Assembly (NCBI RefSeq): GCF_014696065.1
Contig: NZ_JACJPL010000026.1
Span: 310,001 to 374,000, forward strand
DNA length: 64,000 bases
Direction of reading: 5' to 3'
Source: Leptolyngbya sp. FACHB-261
GTDB lineage: Bacteria > Cyanobacteriota > Cyanobacteriia > FACHB-261
Part shown: piece after piece, positions 3,763-41,645 of the stretch
Numbering within the stretch: position 1 is the first letter of the stretch
How the letters are laid out: the number at the start of each line of letters is the position of its first letter
The notes under the pieces: model-generated
Databases searched by the model: none
The model's input: the letters and a program-made list of their open reading frames with translations, nothing else
Told to the model about the DNA's origin: nothing
Made by a program: the position numbers and the translations under genes

Positions 3763-6627
3763 TCAGAGGTTGGCTACCAGGGATTGCTGCAACTCTAAAC
3801 TGAGCAAACCAGGCGAGCGCTGTTCCGCGGCCAGCATGGCTTGAGCTGCCTTACGAGCCTCTCGGTGTAGGCCAGGGTGAGACAGTGCAAGCACCAGGTG
3901 ACCGTCGTACTCCGGCAACCGATGCTTGCGTCGGTACATAATCTCTCGATGCCAGCGGCTCACAATGGCTTGGCAATACTCAAACACAAGCGCAGGTTCA
4001 TCCCAGAGAGCGTTCAGGGCAGCAGTGACCAGAGGTCGATACTGCCGGTGCCAGTCGTTAAGGATCCGAAGCGCACGCTGACGCCGGAGGGGTGTATCAG
4101 TCGGAATCGCTAAAGCTGGAGCCCTGAGCACAAGCGGTAAATTCTTGTCCCAAACACTCAGCATTGCTATGGCTAACTCTTGCGCCTCCGCAGTTGTTCC
4201 AGCGATTTCTAGACAAACTACCAGCACTTGAGGGTCAGTTCGAGTCCAATCGCGGATTCGCTCTAGGGCAAACTCTTGTGCCGACTCACCCAATAACTTC
4301 AGACAACGACAGAGCACAGCTCGATCTTGCCGACTGCTAAGTAACTGTTTAGCCTCATCCTGAGCAGCTTCCCCCAGGAGATCTAAACAACGGCAGAGGA
4401 CGACACTGTCCTGGCTGGAGCGCAGTAATTGTCTAGCTTCATCTCGGGCGTCGCCTAACAAATCCAGGCAGCAGCAGAGGACAAAGGGATGGGTGGCAGG
4501 ATCTGCCAATAACTGTCTGGCACTATCCAGGGCGGTTTCACCCAGTAAATCCAGGCAACGACACAGGACAAAGGGATGGGTGGCAGGATCTGTTAATAGT
4601 TGCTTGGCCTCCAGTAAAGCTGTTTTCCCTAACAGATCTAGACAGCGGCAAAGGACATCGGGTCGCATTGCTGGGTCTGCTAGTAATTGTCTGGCTCGGT
4701 CTTGGGCAGTTTCACCCAGTAAATCTAGGCAACGACACAGGACAGTTGGATGGGTCGTCACATCTGCTAGCAATTGTCTGGCTCGGTCTTGGGCTGCTTC
4801 TCCCAGCAAATCTAGGCAACGGCAGAGCACGGCAGGGTGAATTGTTGTGTCTGCCAACCAAGTTTGGGCCAAGGCTTGAGCTTGCTGGTTGCCTAACCCT
4901 TGCAGTAAGGGCAGCAGAATATTGCGATCGCGGCAACCGGCTTGATAAAGCTGTGTTAGCAGCTCGACTTTCTGTTCAAGCTCTTCGTAGTTGTGTTGGA
5001 CCCAGCTCCAGACTGCGCTCCAAAGCTGTGCATTGACAGGCGCAAGCGGTGCTGCTGCCCGTAACAGCTCTAGTCTCTGGGCTGGTGTCAGAGCCAGTCT
5101 TTCATTCACAATCAGCCTCAGATAAGCGCCATGACCATTGCTTGAGGCCAAAAGCTGCTGAATGTAAGCAATGGCTTGCGATTGGCTAATTAAATCGGGA
5201 TGAGTGCGCACAAAGCCGCTCAGGGCGTGAGAACTCGAAAAACTGCTGCCACGCTTGATCATCAAGTCAAGCGTGGCTCTCCTCCAGGTATCGGTGCCAA
5301 TCGGGCGTGGCCCTAAAAGACCTTGCTGCCCGGCTAAGATCAACCCTTCTGCTAGAGACTGATGCTGAAATCGGACGGCATCGTATTCCGGCTCAAAGCA
5401 AAGAAGTGGTGCCAAAAGTGACCAGGCTAGAGCACTCAGAGGTTCCTGCAGGGATCTTGAGGGACCGCTTAGGGCTGCGTGGTAGTCCGCCAATAACCGA
5501 AATGAGTGGTAGGAGATGTGCCGTCCCACCTCTCGAATGGCTGCTGCATCGCTGATTGCCTCAGCCAAGTCCGGCAGAATGGTCCGTATGCGCCTGACTC
5601 GGTCAGCCAAAATCTCTAAGAATGCTCTTTCTAGGTCTTGGGCTGTGAAGTCTTGGGCTGCTGGGTCTTGGGCTGCATTAGCTACGGGTCGTCCTGCGGC
5701 CAGCACCCACAGGAGGTGAACCAAGTTGGGGGCGACTAGAGGAGCTGTCGTTAAGGTTCGGGCCGCTCTTGCCCAAGTGGGAACCAGCTCAGCAGCTTTT
5801 TGCACAATAGCAACCCAGTCTGCTGAGGATTCTGCAGTAAACAGGCCTGAACTTGCGCTGACCTTCGCTTGCAAAGCAGGCGGTAACTGACGGCCAGCCA
5901 CAACCAAGCCTAAGTCTGTTCGTCGGCGCAACCCTTGCTGCAAGCGACGAACGTCCTCGTTTTCAAGTTTTTGGATGTTATCCACCAGCAAGAATTGGGG
6001 GGCTTCGCCTTTGGTCAATTCAGCCAGCCCAAACCGTAGCAGTCGCTCTGGATCTTGCACCCACCACACCTTGTACCCCTGCTCGTAGAGGTCTAGGGCT
6101 AAGCGGCGCAGAGCTACAGTTTTACCGCTACCCGTTGGGCCGAGAATTGCTGCGGCTGGGCAGTTGTGATGACCGGCGTTGAGAACTTGGTGTAACAGCT
6201 CTGAACTGAAACTACGACGGATATCCCAGCCTCGAAAACACCCTAGCCAGCCAGCTTGATGTTGGGCGGCATAAAACTTTTCTGGCGTGATGCGTTGAGC
6301 TTCTGGATCTTCACCCCGCTTGGTGGCGGCTTCAAGGGCTTGGCGTTGGTAAGCTTCTTCACGCTGCCACAGGCTCTGTCCAACTGGATAGGCTCCTTCC
6401 GGCAAAAACTCCCGAAAAAACAAGAGCCCATCCAAGATCTCGCGTAAATGCCCAAAACCCTGTTCTTCGTGCTCAAGGTAGCTAATGATGTCAATGGCTC
6501 TTTGTTCCTGACTAACCGCCTGCCTACGGCGATACCAGACCTCAATGTTCAGCCGAAATAGAATTTCTTCAAATTGCCCTGGTGGGAGCTGGATCAGCTG
6601 AGCGTAGAGTTCTTCTCGAAAAGCCAT
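3763..6627 (-). CDS. STAND-like P-loop NTPase with effector-associated N-terminus and Cys-rich repeat tail
   Basis: A 954-aa protein with three visible parts. Residues ~1-75 (FREELYAQL, QFEEILFRL, RAIDIISYLE) resemble the small helical effector-associated domains that recruit effectors in bacterial NTP-dependent conflict systems. Residues ~155-330 hold a P-loop ATPase: Walker A GPTGSGKT at 163-170, Walker B FLLVDN at 212-217 and a possible sensor stretch LGLVVAGRQ. Residues ~590-800 are eight tandem helical repeats of 27-30 aa with core VLCRCLDLLG, likely a HEAT/TPR-like superhelix for ligand sensing. By family logic the repeats sense, the NTPase oligomerises and the N-terminus recruits a partner; this is inference. 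It stands alone, with GAGG 6 nt before the ATG. No matching effector gene is adjacent. Confidence 0.75.
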   Translation of the reverse strand: MAFREELYAQLIQLPPGQFEEILFRLNIEVWYRRRQAVSQEQRAIDIISYLEHEEQGFGHLREILDGLLFFREFLPEGAYPVGQSLWQREEAYQRQALEAATKRGEDPEAQRITPEKFYAAQHQAGWLGCFRGWDIRRSFSSELLHQVLNAGHHNCPAAAILGPTGSGKTVALRRLALDLYEQGYKVWWVQDPERLLRFGLAELTKGEAPQFLLVDNIQKLENEDVRRLQQGLRRRTDLGLVVAGRQLPPALQAKVSASSGLFTAESSADWVAIVQKAAELVPTWARAARTLTTAPLVAPNLVHLLWVLAAGRPVANAAQDPAAQDFTAQDLERAFLEILADRVRRIRTILPDLAEAISDAAAIREVGRHISYHSFRLLADYHAALSGPSRSLQEPLSALAWSLLAPLLCFEPEYDAVRFQHQSLAEGLILAGQQGLLGPRPIGTDTWRRATLDLMIKRGSSFSSSHALSGFVRTHPDLISQSQAIAYIQQLLASSNGHGAYLRLIVNERLALTPAQRLELLRAAAPLAPVNAQLWSAVWSWVQHNYEELEQKVELLTQLYQAGCRDRNILLPLLQGLGNQQAQALAQTWLADTTIHPAVLCRCLDLLGEAAQDRARQLLADVTTHPTVLCRCLDLLGETAQDRARQLLADPAMRPDVLCRCLDLLGKTALLEAKQLLTDPATHPFVLCRCLDLLGETALDSARQLLADPATHPFVLCCCLDLLGDARDEARQLLRSSQDSVVLCRCLDLLGEAAQDEAKQLLSSRQDRAVLCRCLKLLGESAQEFALERIRDWTRTDPQVLVVCLEIAGTTAEAQELAIAMLSVWDKNLPLVLRAPALAIPTDTPLRRQRALRILNDWHRQYRPLVTAALNALWDEPALVFEYCQAIVSRWHREIMYRRKHRLPEYDGHLVLALSHPGLHREARKAAQAMLAAEQRSPGLLSLELQQSLVANL

Positions 6628-7601: not shown

Positions 7602-7937
7602 TCAGAAAACTTGAGGGCTAGAGCATTTATTGGAGTTCTGCACGGCTCGTAACAGGTTAGGCGAGAGGCTATAAAGTGCGATAGTTGGCCCGCCACCTTC
7701 AGAGTGGACAGTGACTTTGCGAACCAAATCACGAGCTTCGAGGCTGAGTAATAAGGGGCGGAGTTCTGAGGTTTCCAGATGGCTGTCACGGTTGAGCAGG
7801 TTGAGGGGAACGCGGGACAAGGCACCATTGGGTTCGATGTAGTTAGCGATCACGAGCAGAATCAGCTTGAGCGGTGCAGCCAAATTGAGACTGCGGACAA
7901 TGTGGTCCCAGAGAGCGAGTCGAAGCGTGGGGCTCAT
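7602..7937 (-). CDS. Module copy 1, ORF B: small winged-helix-like DNA-binding protein
   Basis: A 111-aa protein I cannot name. It is clearly paralogous to the product of 40180-40503: both share RLALWD(H/Y)IVR, LKLILLVIANYIE.NGA.SRV, LLLSLEA..LV.KV and LYSLSP.LLR. The central segment (helix LKLILLVIANYI, then NLLNRDSHLE and LRPLLLSLEARDLV) has the rhythm of a winged helix-turn-helix in the style of HTH_36/replication-initiator wHTH domains, followed by a short beta wing. It is the last gene of module copy 1, downstream of the 21-bp palindrome array. The reading frame stays open upstream through that array, but no start codon is available there and copy 2 has a stop 13 nt before its ATG, so the ATG at 7937 is the likely start. 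Confidence 0.65.
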   Translation of the reverse strand: MSPTLRLALWDHIVRSLNLAAPLKLILLVIANYIEPNGALSRVPLNLLNRDSHLETSELRPLLLSLEARDLVRKVTVHSEGGGPTIALYSLSPNLLRAVQNSNKCSSPQVF

Positions 7938-8030
7938 GAGTTTGAGAGTAGAAGGATCGTGTAAACTGCGGCATTCTGACTCTGGGACTGGTAAATCGGG
8001 CCGAGGCGGAGCGTTGATGGGGTCAACTAG

Positions 8031-8261
8031 TCCATTGATGGAGTGAATGGGTCCGTTGACGGAGTCTAGAGGTCGATTAACGGGGTCAGCGAGTCCGTTA
8101 ACGGGGTGAATAAGTCGGTCGATGGAGTGAATGGGTCCGTTATCGGAGTGAAACGGTTGGTTAATGGAGTGAATGGGTCCATCAATGGACTGAATGGGTC
8201 CGTTAACGGGGTCATTTAGTCCGTTAATGGAGTCTTCGGGTCCATCAATGCGGTTTGGAAG
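8031..8261. repeat. Module copy 1 palindrome array (11 units of exactly 21 bp)
   Basis: Units begin at 8031, 8052, 8073, 8094, 8115, 8136, 8157, 8178, 8199, 8220 and 8241, with no drift. Each opens with a variant of the perfect 12-bp palindrome TCCGTTAACGGA (also TCCATTGATGGA, TCCGTTGACGGA, TCCATCAATGGA), usually followed by GTGAATGGG. The substitutions mostly preserve dyad symmetry, as expected of dimer-binding sites. A 21-bp period puts every site on the same DNA face. The array lies between ORF A and ORF B; copy 2 has an equivalent array with a different palindrome. Confidence 0.9.
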
Positions 8262-8319: not shown

Positions 8320-8691
8320 TCAACGGGTGCCTTGGGTAACAGCGTTCTTAGCGTTGCGCAGTTGGGTATGTCGCTGTCGCCAAAGCTGCCGCCAATAGCT
8401 CAGCACGTCTTCGGGGTAGGCATAGCGCTGGATTTCGGTTTTGATCACCTCGCCAATCCAGTCGAGCAGATGCAGGTCGTTGCAGGCTTGAATGGTCAGG
8501 GCACAGGCGGCAAGCCACTGGTTGAATTTGCGATAGCTGAGGAACTGCCCGCCTCGGTCGGCACGATGGACAAACAGCACATGCAGCCAGTGTTCGATGC
8601 GGCAAATCAGCGATTCGGAAATGCCTAAGAAACGGGCAACTTGAGACAAGGGAATGCAAAGCTGCGGCTGCAACACCTGGGTGAGGTGCAT
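8320..8691 (-). CDS. Module copy 1, ORF A: small HTH-like protein
   Basis: A 123-aa protein of unknown family, paralogous to the product of 40894-41250: MHLTQVLQPQLC, QVARFLGI.(E/K)S, CRIEHW.HVLFVHRAD.GGQF.SYRKF and Y.EDVL.YWR.LW are shared. The segment at residues ~16-36 (LSQVARFLGISESLICRIEHW) reads as a helix-turn-helix: helix, SES turn, recognition helix. The ATG at 8691 is preceded by GGAG with an 8-nt spacer, and the same GGAGTCCTT context recurs in copy 2. It follows the structured leader and precedes the palindrome array. A role in binding the array is inference. Confidence 0.7.
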   Translation of the reverse strand: MHLTQVLQPQLCIPLSQVARFLGISESLICRIEHWLHVLFVHRADRGGQFLSYRKFNQWLAACALTIQACNDLHLLDWIGEVIKTEIQRYAYPEDVLSYWRQLWRQRHTQLRNAKNAVTQGTR

Positions 8692-9090
8692 GGGAAGGAC
8701 TCCAAAAATTTGAGGGCAATAGAGCCTTTGACCCTATTCAGGGTCGAGAAAGGCAGGTGTTAAACTGCCCCCTAGCCGCCGGGTTGTTGCTTGCAACCCG
8801 ACGGTTAGTTCCCCAGAGTTTGTATAAGACCCTGGGGGACGCCTAGGGGGCCAGTTACCTGTGTGGAAAGGCACCAGGGACTCCCTATTGGAGTCAAGTA
8901 GGCAGCGCAAAAAAGTTTCTTGTATCGCAACTAACCCAGTGAAGTAAGCACCAAGACTCAGCTTCAACCTAATTCCAACTCCACTGAATCTCTTTCTACC
9001 CAGTTAAAAAACGGCAGCCATGCTGGGACGAATATCTCAGCTCAGGATGAAACCTGAAACGAGATTTGTTTATCCGGTGATTAAGAGCCT
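8692..9090 (-). repeat. Conserved module leader, copy 1 (paired with 41251-41645)
   Basis: About 400 bp upstream of ORF A that aligns along its whole length with the region upstream of the copy-2 ORF A. Near-identical blocks include the GGACTCCAAAA start context, TAAACTGCCCCCTAGCCGCC, GTTAGTTCCCCAGAGTTTG, AAGACCCTGGGGGACGCC, AAGTAAGCACCAA and GCTGAAACGAGAT-like text at the distal end. It has no long ORF. Conservation of non-coding sequence at this level, equal to or above the coding parts, argues for function. The 94-nt Y-shaped core is listed separately. Confidence 0.75.
8763..8856 (-). ncRNA. Y-shaped structured element, copy 1
   Basis: Nested inverted repeats make a three-way junction: outer stem AACTG+CCCCCTAG (8763-8775) with CTAGGGGG and CAGTT (8843-8850, 8852-8856, one bulged base); arm 1 CCGCCGGGTTG (8776-8786) with CAACCCGACGG (8794-8804), 7-nt loop, one mismatch; arm 2 CCCCAG (8811-8816) with CTGGGG (8832-8837). 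Copy 2 folds identically over 94 nt, with a G-C pair changed to A-T (8781/8799 versus 41341/41359). It could be a transcribed leader RNA of ORF A or a DNA cruciform; strand is assigned from ORF A. Confidence 0.6.
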
Positions 9091-9256
9091 CGCTTCCCGA
9101 AGCCTTTCACCTAAGCAAACAGTAGGGAATTTCTGGGCCTGCTCTCATCACACCCCATCTATTCGCTAGAGTTTAGTTTGACCTCAGCCAGGCTTGTGAA
9201 ATTACACGGCCAGACGAGGGAGGAATGCCTCAACCTCGAAACTTATCAACACAAAT

Positions 9257-9426
9257 GTACTGAATCTGAAAGTATGCGGAACGAGTCTACCTATTTAGCT
9301 GAATTGGTACATTATGCGGCAAGATTCTGCCTATCTATCTGATTTAGGGTGTTATACAGAAATCATCTGCCTAATCACCACTATAGGGGCGTTATATGGA
9401 AACTTTCAGTCCAATAATAGTTATGT
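9257..9426. repeat. Four-unit ~40-bp repeat element R1 at cassette-array edge
   Basis: Four degenerate units of about 40 bp with core TATGCGGAAAGTTTCTGCCT; in the best units GCAGAAAGTTTCTGC is a near-perfect palindrome. The block ends CCAATAATAGTTATG, immediately before the first cassette gene. Related blocks occur at 10266-10435, ending in a consensus GTTAGAC, and at 52141-52290. No spacer-like unique segments, so this is not a CRISPR array. Confidence 0.7.
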
Positions 9427-9970: not shown

Positions 9971-10265
9971 TACTCAGACTACGGGTGGGAACATAATCTA
10001 GAGCTTGTCCGCTGTAATTTGAGAAGGTATTGCTGGTTTAACCGTGTAGGTTTCGTTGAGTTGCTCGTTCACGCCCCAAGCAATCAATTGCAACGAATCC
10101 ATAAGTAGAACCACAGACAAATCCCAATTACTCAGTCCACCGTTGATTCAATCCACAAAATCACTTAATCAGGCAAAAGGGCACGCCACCATCTTGAGAA
10201 CAAATCAGTCAAGGAGAATATAACGTCTCTTAAACCCTTGCTGACCAATGTGTCCAGAAGCGGGT
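9971..10265. other. Gene-poor cassette interval
   Basis: About 300 bp between attC-like site 1 and repeat R2. The only notable frame is a 34-aa minus-strand peptide (9998-10102, MDSLQLIAWGV...), too short and without a clear family, so not called as a gene. Confidence 0.4.
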
Positions 10266-10435
10266 GTATTGAATCTAAAAATATGCAGAAAGATCCTGCC
10301 TATTTGACTGAATCGGCATATTATGTGGAAAGTTTCTGCCTATCTACCTGATTTGGGGCGTTAGACAGAAAGTTTCTGCATAATCACCTGCACGGGGGTG
10401 TTATACACAAACGTTCCCTCTAATAATAGTTAGAC
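10266..10435. repeat. Four-unit ~40-bp repeat element R2 ending in an R'-type box
   Basis: Aligns with R1 over its whole length (shared TGAATCT start, four ~40-bp units, AATAATAGTTA end). Two units carry GAAAGTTTCTGC palindromic cores. The last seven bases, GTTAGAC (10429-10435), match the attC R' consensus exactly, so the element may itself be the recombination end of the preceding cassette. Confidence 0.65.
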
Positions 10436-10767: not shown

Positions 10768-10832
10768 GCTCAACGTCGCCGGCCGACTTGGACGCCGGCG
10801 TCCTGAGGTGCCGGTCAACTCCGACGTTAGAC
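10768..10832 (+). mobile_element. attC site 2
   Basis: R''-type box GCTCAAC (10768-10774) and R' box GTTAGAC (10826-10832) match RYYYAAC and GTTRRRY. AACGTCG and CGACGTT form a perfect 7-bp outer stem, and CCGGC/GCCGG segments continue it. Length 65 nt, in the usual attC range. Confidence 0.65.
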
Positions 10833-10929: not shown

Positions 10930-11879
10930 ATGACCAAGTTACCTAAACGTACTAAGTCTCAGAGGATTGGTGTAAGTGCTGCTGATCTCCTGAGTTCTGT
11001 TTTTGCCGAATTTTGCAACATTATCCCCATTCCTCAAGATAGAGATTTCGGCATTGACTTCATTTGTGAAATCATGCAGGGAGAACACCCAACTGGAAGG
11101 TTGTTTAACATTCAATGTAAAGGGAAAGAAGAAGCCAACGTAGAAGGGAACTCAATCACACTTCCCATCAAAGTAACAACTCTCAATCATTGGCTGCTTC
11201 AGCCAAATCCAACATTCTTGATTATTGTTGATTGTCAAAACAGCGTGTTTTATTGGTCTTTTCCTCAAGATTTCCTCAGTTCACTTAATAAGAACTGGCA
11301 AAAACAACAAACAGTTTCAATTCCAGTTCCTCTTGAAAACCATTTTGAGCAAGATGTAAACGCCTTACCTATCCAGTTAGTTTCAATAGTTAATTCACAG
11401 GCATCTGCTGCTCCTCAGAATGGTGATTACCTTGGAACATTGTCACTTGCTGATGCTGTAAATAGGGCTATCGATTATGGATTATATGTACTGAGGGCAC
11501 CTTTCCAGCGTCCTTTTCAGTATATTGGAATGCCTATCGCAGATGCAGCAAGAGCAGTCAGCAGTAAACCCAATGAAGTGGGCAATATTATCATCGACTC
11601 TGAGCAAGCTCATATGCTTTTGGAAGCAGAAGGAATTTTATTAGTTATGTAGATGTTGAACTAAAAAAGACTGCTCCTTGGAGCCAGAGCCGCCCGTTTG
11701 ATTCCGTGGCAATCTTGGGAGTATTTAGTATTAACCCATCCGAGTTAGAACTAGCCCGCAAACAGACACACTTTCATACCTACTACGACCACAAGAGAAA
11801 GTTAAAGATTGGTGTATCTTGTCAGTATGAGGGCGCACCGCTATCTGTAGGATTTAGCAGTAAGTATTACAGAGCGTGA
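10930..11879 (+). pseudogene. DUF4365-type nuclease-like cassette gene, frameshifted
   Basis: The first frame (10930-11652, 240 aa) has the DUF4365 layout of the PD-(D/E)xK-like superfamily: an Arg/Lys-rich start, then RDFGIDFICEI and FNIQCKGKEE, i.e. D-x(n)-(D/E) followed by Q-x-K, and a LLQPNPTFLIIVD strand. It stops at 11652, but the sequence stays coding in the -1 frame for ~75 more codons (YVDVELKKTAPW, VFSINPSELELARKQTHF, GFSSKYYRA) to TGA 11877-11879. The slip is in or near GGAATTTTATTAGTTATG (~11632-11649), an A/T run that could be a mutation, a sequencing error or a programmed slip. Full product ~315 aa. DUF4365 genes are frequent in integrons and defence islands. Confidence 0.75.
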
Positions 11880-11908
11880 AGTGAGTTTCAAGGTTGGGGG
11901 TTGGTGCT

Positions 11909-12825: not shown

Positions 12826-13173
12826 TATAGATTGCGAGATTTGAGGATGAATGTTTTCGCTTGAGTTGCATATACATTAAGCGACTAACACTTAAAGAGT
12901 AATCAGAGATAATAGCCTATGATTTTTATGGCACAAATTGCTGTTTAAGGAGACAGAACTTGTGGAAGTAACGACAGCAAAAATTTTAGTTGATCTCTAA
13001 TTTTATTTGCCTTTGTTGTGAAAGTATGAAAGTAGGTCAGGCTACTGCTGCAATGCCCCAAGAGAATCTACGGAACTTTGATACGAGTTCTCATTTTGCT
13101 CCCGAGTAGGGCTTGCCAAACGTCGAGCTTTGCCCTATTGTTTCTGTTCAGTCCAGTCTTGAAGCGCCGCCGA

Positions 13174-13351
13174 GGGCTGTTAGCACCAACCCCTGGCGAC
13201 TGACCTCTAGGTTGGTTTACGCCAGCCCAAAGGCTACGACGGAGTTTAGCACTCCGTTGCGGTTAACCCCATGCAAAGCGGGTCAGGTGGGGGCCTAAGA
13301 GAGGGAGCGAAGGGGCAATCTTCACAGGTTGCCCCTCAAAACCTATTGAGG
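13174..13351 (+). ncRNA. Structured 5' leader candidate before a 73-aa gene
   Basis: Several complementary blocks in series: GGGCTG (13174-13179) with CAGCCC (13223-13228), enclosing ACCAACC (13185-13191) with GGTTGGT (13210-13216); a competing CTGGCG (13193-13198) with CGCCAG (13220-13225) would make a pseudoknot; ACGGAGT/ACTCCGT (13239-13257); GGGGCAA/TTGCCCC (13312-13335); and CCTCAA/TTGAGG (13334-13351). The last stem covers GAGG, the Shine-Dalgarno of the gene at 13362, and shares two bases with the previous stem, so a switch is possible. No known riboswitch class recognised. The preceding 12826-13173 is otherwise featureless. Confidence 0.45.
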
Positions 13352-13361
13352 ATTTTCCGCC

Positions 13362-13583
13362 ATGACTCAATCGTCTACCCCCGTATTTAGCGACAGCGAT
13401 CTGAACATTTTAAAGGTACTAATGCAACGCTATAGCCTCTCAGTCGTTGTCGCAGCCCTGAATCGAATCTGCTTCGGGCAAGCAGAACAAGCAGTGGCTC
13501 AACAACGGAACCGAGAGACCATTCGCGCGTGGCGCGAGGATGTCAGCATCTTGAACAAAACCGTAGTTCAACTTAATCATTAG
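13362..13583 (+). CDS. Small hypothetical protein
   Basis: A 73-aa soluble protein of unknown family. It starts MTQSSTPVFSDSDLNIL, then has a predicted amphipathic helix pair (KVLMQRYSLSVVVAALNRIC and QAEQAVAQQRNRETIRAWREDV). The ATG at 13362 has GAGG 10 nt upstream, inside a small hairpin of the structured leader. There is no operon partner; it lies between the cassette array and the large hybrid kinase. Possibly a helical regulator or adaptor, but nothing in the sequence settles this. Confidence 0.5.
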   Translation: MTQSSTPVFSDSDLNILKVLMQRYSLSVVVAALNRICFGQAEQAVAQQRNRETIRAWREDVSILNKTVVQLNH

Positions 13584-40179: not shown

Positions 40180-40503
40180 TTATTCTGTCTGTCCTTTAGG
40201 GCTCTGAATGGTGCGAAGCAGGCTAGGAGAAAGGCTGTAGAGCGGAATGATGGAGCCACGGCCTTCTGGATAGACTAGAACTTTGCTCACTAGATTCTGG
40301 GCTTCAAGACTCAGGAGTAAAGACCGCAGCGCTTCGGGTTCTAGGCTGCTGTCGCGGCTGAGCAGGCCAAGTGTGACTCGCGATTGAGCACCGTTGGCTT
40401 CGATATAGTTGGCAATCACGAGCAAAATCAGTTTGAGCTGAGCGGGGAGTTGGAGGCGACGGACGATGTAGTCCCACAGAGCAAGACGAGTTTGGGAGGA
40501 CAT
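40180..40503 (-). CDS. Module copy 2, ORF B: small winged-helix-like protein
   Basis: 107 aa, paralogue of the product of 7602-7937. Identical or similar blocks are RLALWDYIVRRL, LKLILLVIANYIEANGAQSRV, LRSLLLSLEAQNLVSKV and IPLYSLSPSLLR. The order of helices and a short wing between LV.KV and LYSLSP suggests a winged helix. The C-terminal ends of the two copies differ completely. An in-frame TAA only 13 nt before the ATG (40516-40518) fixes the start at 40503, despite a weak Shine-Dalgarno. It lies downstream of the copy-2 palindrome array. Proposed array binding is inference. Confidence 0.65.
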   Translation of the reverse strand: MSSQTRLALWDYIVRRLQLPAQLKLILLVIANYIEANGAQSRVTLGLLSRDSSLEPEALRSLLLSLEAQNLVSKVLVYPEGRGSIIPLYSLSPSLLRTIQSPKGQTE

Positions 40504-40893: not shown

Positions 40894-41250
40894 TCAGGCG
40901 GTTGATTGCTGCGGTTGAAGCTCTCGATAGCGCCGATGCCAGAGATGCCGCCAGTAGACTAGGACGTCTTGGGGATAAGCAAAGCGCTGAACTTCGCTTT
41001 TAATCACGTGTCCCAGCCATTCAAGCAAGCGTAAATCGGTGCAACTGAGGATGGTGCGGGCGCAAGCTTCGCTCCAAGCAGCGAATTTGCGGTAGCTGAT
41101 GAACTGGCCACCCTGGTCGGCACGATGGACAAACAAGACGTGGGTCCAGTGTTCGATGCGGCAGATGCGCGATTTGGGAATGCCCAAGAAACGGGCGACC
41201 TGAAGTAGGGAAATGCAAAGCTGCGGCTGCAACACCTGGGTGAGGTGCAT
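40894..41250 (-). CDS. Module copy 2, ORF A: small HTH-like protein
   Basis: 118 aa, paralogue of the product of 8320-8691, with the same HTH-like segment (LLQVARFLGIPKSRICRIEHW) and the same HVLFVHRADQGGQF and YWRHLW blocks. Within the HTH the turn and recognition-helix residues differ between copies (ISESL versus IPKSR), which is what one expects if each copy reads its own array. The ATG at 41250 has GGAG at 8 nt in the conserved GGAGTCCTT context; the frame extends upstream to 41316 through the leader, but that part is not conserved as protein. Confidence 0.7.
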   Translation of the reverse strand: MHLTQVLQPQLCISLLQVARFLGIPKSRICRIEHWTHVLFVHRADQGGQFISYRKFAAWSEACARTILSCTDLRLLEWLGHVIKSEVQRFAYPQDVLVYWRHLWHRRYRELQPQQSTA

Positions 41251-41645
41251 GGAAAGGACTCCAAAATTTTGAGGGCAATGGGATCCTGTGACCCTCTTCA
41301 GGGCCAAGGAAGGCAAGTGTTAAACTGCCCCCTAGCCGCCAGGTTGTCAGATGCAACCTGGCGGTTAGTTCCCCAGAGTTTGAGTAAGACCCTGGGGGAC
41401 GCCTAGGGGTCCAGTTGCCTGTCATGGAAAGTAACAGGGACTGGATTCCAGAGTCAAGGGGGTAACCGAAAAAAGATCTGTGTGTTGCAGCGAACCGAGC
41501 AAAGTAAGCACCAAAACCTAGCTTCAGTCTCATTTCACTTAACTCAATCTCTTCCTAGCCAGTCAGAAAAACGACGGCTATGCTGGGATGAGTGTCTCAG
41601 CTCAGTTTTGAAAGCTGAAACGAGATTCATTTATCAGGTGATTAA
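41251..41645 (-). repeat. Conserved module leader, copy 2 (paired with 8692-9090)
   Basis: Aligns end to end with the copy-1 leader, including TAAACTGCCCCCTAGCCGCC, GTTAGTTCCCCAGAGTTTG, AAGTAAGCACCAA and a distal GTCTCAGCTCAG...CTGAAACGAGAT hairpin. The similarity fades at about GGTGATTAA (41636-41645 versus 9078-9087). No ORF is conserved within it. Beyond it lies the upstream region of the Ser/Thr kinase gene at 41784. Confidence 0.75.
41323..41416 (-). ncRNA. Y-shaped structured element, copy 2
   Basis: Outer stem AACTG+CCCCCTAG (41323-41335) with CTAGGGG and CAGTT (41403-41409, 41412-41416); arm 1 CCGCCAGGTTG (41336-41346) with CAACCTGGCGG (41354-41364), a perfect 11-bp stem with 7-nt loop; arm 2 CCCCAG (41371-41376) with CTGGGG (41392-41397). 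Spacing is identical to copy 1, with one compensatory pair change and one repaired mismatch in arm 1. Confidence 0.6.

Follow-up and report, generated by a model that had tools for sequence, protein, structure and literature searches.

The two-armed (Y) inverted repeat of 94 nt that precedes a small open reading frame (ORF A) in the window, that is, the whole 64,000-nt stretch of the Leptolyngbya sp. FACHB-261 genome analysed here (contig NZ_JACJPL010000026.1, positions 310,001 to 374,000), is one copy of an apparently undescribed regulatory leader of filamentous cyanobacteria. Taken as a whole, the element is read as a cis-regulatory attenuator leader of a small ORF in which a counter-transcript from the opposite strand takes part, and we give this reading a probability of about one half. 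The position, the orientation, the covariation, the sense promoter, the strand asymmetry and, in part of the copies, a terminator-like hairpin (P5) were computed and are described below. For the copies located in the window, which belong to group Ia and type C, the claim goes no further than a structured leader ahead of the small ORF, since they are without a sense terminator.

Three copies of the element in the window

The two-armed fold and its second copy, both proposed in a first-pass annotation of this DNA, are real. Copy 1 folds on the plus strand with a minimum free energy (MFE) of -57.5 kcal/mol (z -6.69), which none of 200 shuffled sequences equalled, and the minus strand is nearly as stable (-56.1, z -6.83), meaning that copy 1 itself has hardly any strand preference. 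The alignment of copies 1 and 2 (Table 1) contains both of the differences that had been reported between them: in arm 1 a G-C pair is replaced by A-T (CGGGTTG/CAACCCG in one copy, CAGGTTG/CAACCTG in the other), and a C.A mismatch becomes C-G. The fold had been called identical in both leaders, but the outer stem (P1) is not: copy 2 has an internal loop there and copy 1 a single bulge. The outer 13-bp stem was also ruled out as the defining feature, being kept only in 15 closely similar copies (U01-U15). In the full set of 47 copies that precede an ORF A, it is the two arms (P2 and P3) and an adjacent third hairpin (P4) that are conserved. In the two Ia copies of the window, for which a terminator was found on neither strand, a closed P1 and P4 would be mutually exclusive and may be their switch.

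Table 1. Features of the element and its surroundings in the window, by position and, where assigned, strand.
Feature	Position	Strand	Remarks
ORF B, copy 1	7602-7937	-	winged-helix-like small protein
21-nt tandem repeats between ORF A and ORF B	8012-8254	-	unit sequence copy-specific
ORF A, copy 1	8320-8691	-	123 aa, 47 paralogues in genome
Copy 1, extra small hairpin	8730-8745	-	GACCC/GGGTC, between P4 and ORF A, kept in U01-U15
Copy 1, hairpin P4	8752-8769		GGCAG-loop-CTGCC, competes with P1
Copy 1, two-armed (Y) element	8763-8856		outer stem P1 = 8763-8775 + 8844-8856
Copy 1, hairpin P3	8776-8806		arm 1 of the first-pass annotation; apical loop free
Copy 1, hairpin P2	8808-8840		arm 2 of the first-pass annotation
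Copy 1, -10-like TGCCTT	8868-8873	-	18 nt from -35, weak match
Copy 1, -35-like TTGACT	8892-8897	-	fixed place in the 14 Ia copies listed, of 15
Copy 3, promoter-like TTGCCA - 17 nt - TATTGT	13113-13141	+
Copy 3, P2-P3-P4 core	13158-13263	+	covariance model only, E 5e-18
ORF C, behind copy 3	13362-13583	+	73 aa
ORF B, copy 2	40180-40503	-
ORF A, copy 2	40894-41250	-
Copy 2 of Y element	41323-41416		MFE -57.1, z -7.68
Copy 2, -35-like TTGACT	41452-41457	-	-10-like TACTTT at 41428-41433; from alignment and sequence

A 168-nt repeat at 9256-9423 and 10265-10432 of the window has 17 matches in the genome and is accompanied by attC-like motifs (sites beginning TGTCTAAC at 11908 and 12739, and a hairpin ending GTTAGAC near 10790). 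We take the repeat and these motifs to be probably an integron cassette array directly beside copy 1. Within the cassette-like stretch a DUF4365 protein is encoded at 10930-11652 (+). Fragments with matches to the integron integrase family that stay below its cut-off, one of them with a stop, are present at C5:14704-14904, C26:205088-205252 and C26:213833-213958 of genome G000, and the first of them is separated from an ORF A unit by about 0.5 kb. Further along the window, 3763-6627 (-) encodes a 954-aa protein with a match to the nSTAND NTPases and with 87-nt internal repeats.

Copy number, spread and downstream ORF families

BLAST detected the element at 18 places in the window's genome, and a covariance model built on 47 leaders (R1) detected it at at least 74 places at E <=0.01, comprising all 47 leaders of ORF A plus 27 further places, copy 3 among them; as 150 of 1814 candidates were scored, 74 is a lower bound. 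A second model (R2), built on these 74 copies plus nine copies from Symploca (83 in total), was used for a class-wide search in which 10 candidates per genome were scored, and at E 1e-4 it placed copies in at least 92 of 388 genomes of the class and in at least 68 of the 334 good ones. In a second search of 13 genomes, seven had matches, with 23, 21, 20, 14, 12, 10 and 6 copies; in one genome, 21 copies share a single contig. The search across cyanobacterial genomes that the first-pass annotation had proposed as a check extends the element far beyond two copies. At the gathering cut-off, none of the 4227 families of Rfam 15 matched the window or any of 14 loci, relaxed Rfam searches with two leaders gave only matches at chance level, and a literature search retrieved no published description of this element. 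A shortened copy was seen at L023 12672-12746, where P2 and the P4 side are kept, P3 is lost and none of the ORFs described next follows.

Five families of small ORFs lie behind the element: A (HTH-like start, 115-130 aa), B (winged-helix-like), C (73 aa), D (63-75 aa) and E (68-130 aa). When the family profiles were searched in six frames over 1.3 kb on either side of 103 copies (74 from the own genome, 29 from other genomes), 93 copies had a member of A-E, no recognised ORF was present at the other 10, and all family matches (133/133) were located downstream and on the same strand. Behind the copies of the own genome, A was found 47 times, B and C nine times each, D five times and E once, with no member in three cases; behind those of other genomes, E was found 22 times and no member in seven cases. 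Since the profiles were partly built from the same 103 copies, 25 copies fetched later and unseen by the profiles served as an independent set, and 23 of these have family E, every one downstream in sense. Whether the element always precedes ORF A had been named in the first-pass annotation as a point to check: all 47 ORF A copies of this genome have it, but it precedes four other ORF families as well. A leader serving a gene on the other side was ruled out, no common gene being seen there by eye.

In 36 of the 47 ORF A units B follows behind A, in many of them with 21-nt tandem repeats in between; the unit of this repeat (7 codons) differs from copy to copy, and by eye similar 7-residue repeats occur near some elements of other genomes. 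Relatives of ORF A in other filamentous cyanobacteria had an R2 match in 9 of 79 cases, all from Symploca, and 70 were without one. For ORF E on plasmids (13 Nostocales plasmid records), no element was detected at any of the four loci searched. On plasmid D of Trichormus variabilis (L230 1619-1918), an E-family gene without the element is flanked by parG and a replication-related gene.

None of the A-E proteins tested scored above the cut-off in Pfam or NCBIfam, none had a convincing match in PHROGs or PADLOC, and none had a meaningful match to a replication initiator, a hit at E 0.35 being seen for one B copy. The AF2 model of ORF A reached a pLDDT of 91 and had no clear match in the PDB, neither the top Foldseek hit (E 0.39) nor the top VIA hit (Z 6.3) being informative, and the model of ORF C was weak and consisted of two helices. 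Weak matches to regulators were obtained for a relative of B only, and a relative of B matched BurrH at 1.1e-5, with no individual stretch passing.

A mobile element or virus was also considered and rejected. The sharp, constant ends required of a mobile element are absent, as the end of similarity varies from pair to pair, and ORF A, like the E-type leader and its exact pattern, had no match in plasmids, phages or viral contigs.

Covariation, promoters and strand asymmetry

Along the ORF strand, the conserved order is P2, P3 and P4, with CTAACC and GGCTA as linkers and, in P4, a loop close to TTTAACA. In a structure-free alignment of 47 copies, 91.7% of the cells of P2 and P3 are paired, against 79.1% in shuffled alignments, and 17 of 23 pairs have changed on both sides; the covariation score is 0.468 against 0.242 for shuffles, a value reached by 0 of 500 shuffles, and structures slid along the alignment pair at 26-47%. 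For the 83 copies, in an alignment fitted to the first model, 90.0% of the cells are paired against 75.1% when shuffled, with changes on both sides in 19 of 23 pairs. One of five covariation measures, further pair types, was not above shuffles, 486 of 500 (47 copies) and 114 of 500 (83 copies) reaching its value. Further covariation in homologues, on which the first-pass annotation had made its reading depend, thus holds over both 47 and 83 copies.

Among the 15 closest copies (Ia), the core stems diverge by 0.00-0.03, codon positions 1, 2 and 3 of ORF A by 0.14, 0.11 and 0.35, the upstream flanks by 0.4-0.6 and the P3 loop by about 0.4 in its 10-nt bin. That the core stems vary less than the first two codon positions points to purifying selection. 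A neutral dispersed repeat, or a functionless leftover of duplication, would fit the high copy number and the loops drifting like the flanks but not these conserved stems or their compensatory changes; already disfavoured, it is highly improbable. The P3 loop differs by 0.67 among U01-U09, against 0.27 at four-fold sites. Diversifying selection on the loops, as for kissing-loop addresses, was dropped as an explanation because the flanking DNA itself differs by 0.4-0.6, so that free drift accounts for the divergence of the P3 loop.

A sigma70-like promoter is present at a fixed distance from the core, its -35 hexamer lying about 45-54 nt before it in Ia, Ib, B, C and D and mostly 80-90 nt before it in II and E. 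Scored as a match to the consensus with weights chosen by the analyst, the sense promoter exceeds shuffled sequences in all seven groups (score/shuffled: Ia 7.81/5.90, Ib 7.42/6.24, II 6.74/6.15, B 7.66/6.22, C 7.44/6.39, D 6.86/6.07, E 7.15/6.13). The 25 new copies gave 7.38/6.28 in sense and 6.25/6.28 in antisense. At the place of the -35-like hexamer of copy 1, divergence is 0.11, against 0.3-0.6 around it, and a stricter promoter scan did not accept the promoter of this copy. As in cis-regulatory leaders, the element thus has a conserved position and orientation before an ORF, compensatory changes in its stems and a promoter-like match upstream.

Downstream of the core, P5, a hairpin rich in G and C with a T tract after it, is found in 21 of 28 E, 12 of 23 II and 6 of 13 Ib copies, against 4%, 3% and 14%, respectively, in shuffled sequences and 1, 2 and 0 cases on the other strand. 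In the new copies it occurs in 9 of 24, the other strand having it in 3 of 24 and shuffled sequences in 4%. No sense terminator was found in Ia (0/15), B (0/5), C (0/9) or D (0/5). According to the sequence, the 5' arm of P5 (UAGCC) is able to pair alternatively with GGCUA behind P3, so that the two predicted folds would exclude each other.

The strands of P2 are not equivalent. On the ORF strand, 73 A.C cells were counted against 7 G.U cells (48 copies less than 80% alike), another count giving 59 against 4, and the new copies had 47 against 5. The base of P3 has the opposite lean, to sense (31 G.U against 7 A.C), the top of P3 is even, and P4 is without strand bias (80 A.C against 75 G.U). 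By energy, the strand opposite the ORF folds better in 79 of 83 and in 28 of 29 copies; it is also the better one by z in 45 of 48 copies and by MFE in 24 of 25 new copies. In antisense, P2 followed by a T tract resembles a terminator in 19 of 23 II, 15 of 29 E and 10 of 24 new copies, and such an end is seen in none of 15 Ia, 5 B and 5 D copies and in one of 9 C copies. Scores for an antisense promoter stayed at the level of shuffled sequences in both scans made for it, and again among the new copies.

Three other explanations are affected by this asymmetry. A leader acting in sense only, as a riboswitch or a protein-bound leader in which P2-P3-P4 recognise a ligand or protein and control P5 or the access of ribosomes without any antisense RNA, would agree with the strict sense polarity and the sense promoter, with the linkers CTAACC and GGCTA and the P4 loop TTTAACA kept beside drifting apical loops, and with the terminator-like P5 in E and II. 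As in riboswitch-type attenuators, the core of the element is conserved and the part that follows varies, being terminator-like in some groups only. However, the excess of A.C over G.U in P2 of the ORF strand is the reverse of what is expected for a stem of a sense RNA and, like the lack of an Rfam match, sets the element apart from such attenuators, and a single ligand for five unrelated families in up to 74 copies would be unusual; we consider a sense-only leader rather unlikely.

If the strand opposite the ORF carried a noncoding RNA gene of its own, acting on targets elsewhere and having the small ORF as a mere neighbour, this would explain why that strand folds better and why P2 has a terminator-like end in II and part of E. 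Such a gene is quite improbable, given that promoter scores on that strand are not above shuffles, that by eye no conserved gene exists on its downstream side, and that five ORF families are held on one side only.

The asymmetry of P2 also fits single-stranded template DNA, so that a DNA element acting as a single (template) strand, such as a site for replication or strand exchange or a transposon or integron-type site, keeps a small share of probability. Integron attC sites carry the paired end core sites RYYYAAC and GTTRRRY and, like the element under this explanation, are strand-specific folded DNA; attC-like repeats adjoin copy 1, several Ia copies adjoin attC-like repeats and integrase fragments, and the many dispersed copies would be in agreement. 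In contrast to attC, the element consists of two separate hairpins behind a promoter, and no core sites were seen by eye at its ends. The fixed promoter spacing, the polarity towards small ORFs in 133 of 133 cases, the similarity between copies that stops at varying places without sharp ends and the lack of a relative in the plasmids, phages and viral contigs searched all argue against a single-stranded DNA element, which we regard as improbable.

Proposed mechanism and known systems

The polarity, the promoter and P5 argue for a leader of the small ORF, and the asymmetry of P2 indicates additional selection on a single strand of the opposite sense; an antisense RNA against the leader would account for both. 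A counter-transcript is proposed because the opposite strand has the better-paired P2 and P3. In the attenuator with a counter-transcript that we favour, a sigma70-like promoter would drive a 5' leader with hairpins P2, P3 and P4, which is presumably transcribed ahead of a small ORF from any of the five unrelated families, and the leader would act as the attenuator of this ORF. In E-type and II leaders, P5 as an intrinsic terminator and the UAGCC-GGCUA pairing would represent stop and read-through, the RNA probably switching between these folds. The putative antisense RNA, transcribed from the opposite strand, would take part in this control with P2 as its terminator, and in such a cis-encoded sense/antisense pair the loops may drift freely, matching the loop drift observed. 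Among the three possibilities raised in the first-pass annotation, a leader RNA and an unusual attenuator are therefore the ones favoured, and a DNA structure for replication or strand exchange received no positive support.

Attenuator leaders controlled by antisense RNA are known from the plasmids pT181 and Inc18/pIP501. The order of parts in E and II resembles theirs, with a sigma70-like promoter in sense, hairpins whose complement forms better stems, a terminator-like end on the opposite strand near the sense promoter and, in part of the copies, a terminator-like hairpin in sense before the ORF. Unlike these, the element is present on many contigs of one genome, precedes small ORFs of several unrelated kinds where the plasmids have one rep gene, and lacks a detectable antisense promoter, and as no replication initiator was found among the A-E proteins tested, it was not filed as a member of the pT181/Inc18 type. 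A cyanobacterial arrangement of a related kind is described for plasmid pSYSA of Synechocystis 6803, where the abundant antisense RNA asRNA1, with three predicted stem-loops, is directed against the ssr7036 mRNA of a 64-aa protein (PMC9978351). There, asRNA1 covers the coding sequence and not a leader and belongs to plasmid copy control (PMC9978351). The likeness concerns the cyanobacterial host and the kind of arrangement. That a counter-transcript attenuator of the plasmid copy-control type has turned into a reusable chromosomal part of multicellular cyanobacteria, with up to 74 copies per genome and at least five small-protein families, is a tentative and rather doubtful extension of our reading.

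With copies in at least 92 of 388 genomes, tens of them in several genomes, and no match in Rfam, the element would rank among the more abundant undescribed leaders of cyanobacteria. It offers a way into five small-protein families (A-E) that the libraries used here leave unnamed, and if the counter-transcript is real, a plasmid-style control would have been turned into a general chromosomal device.
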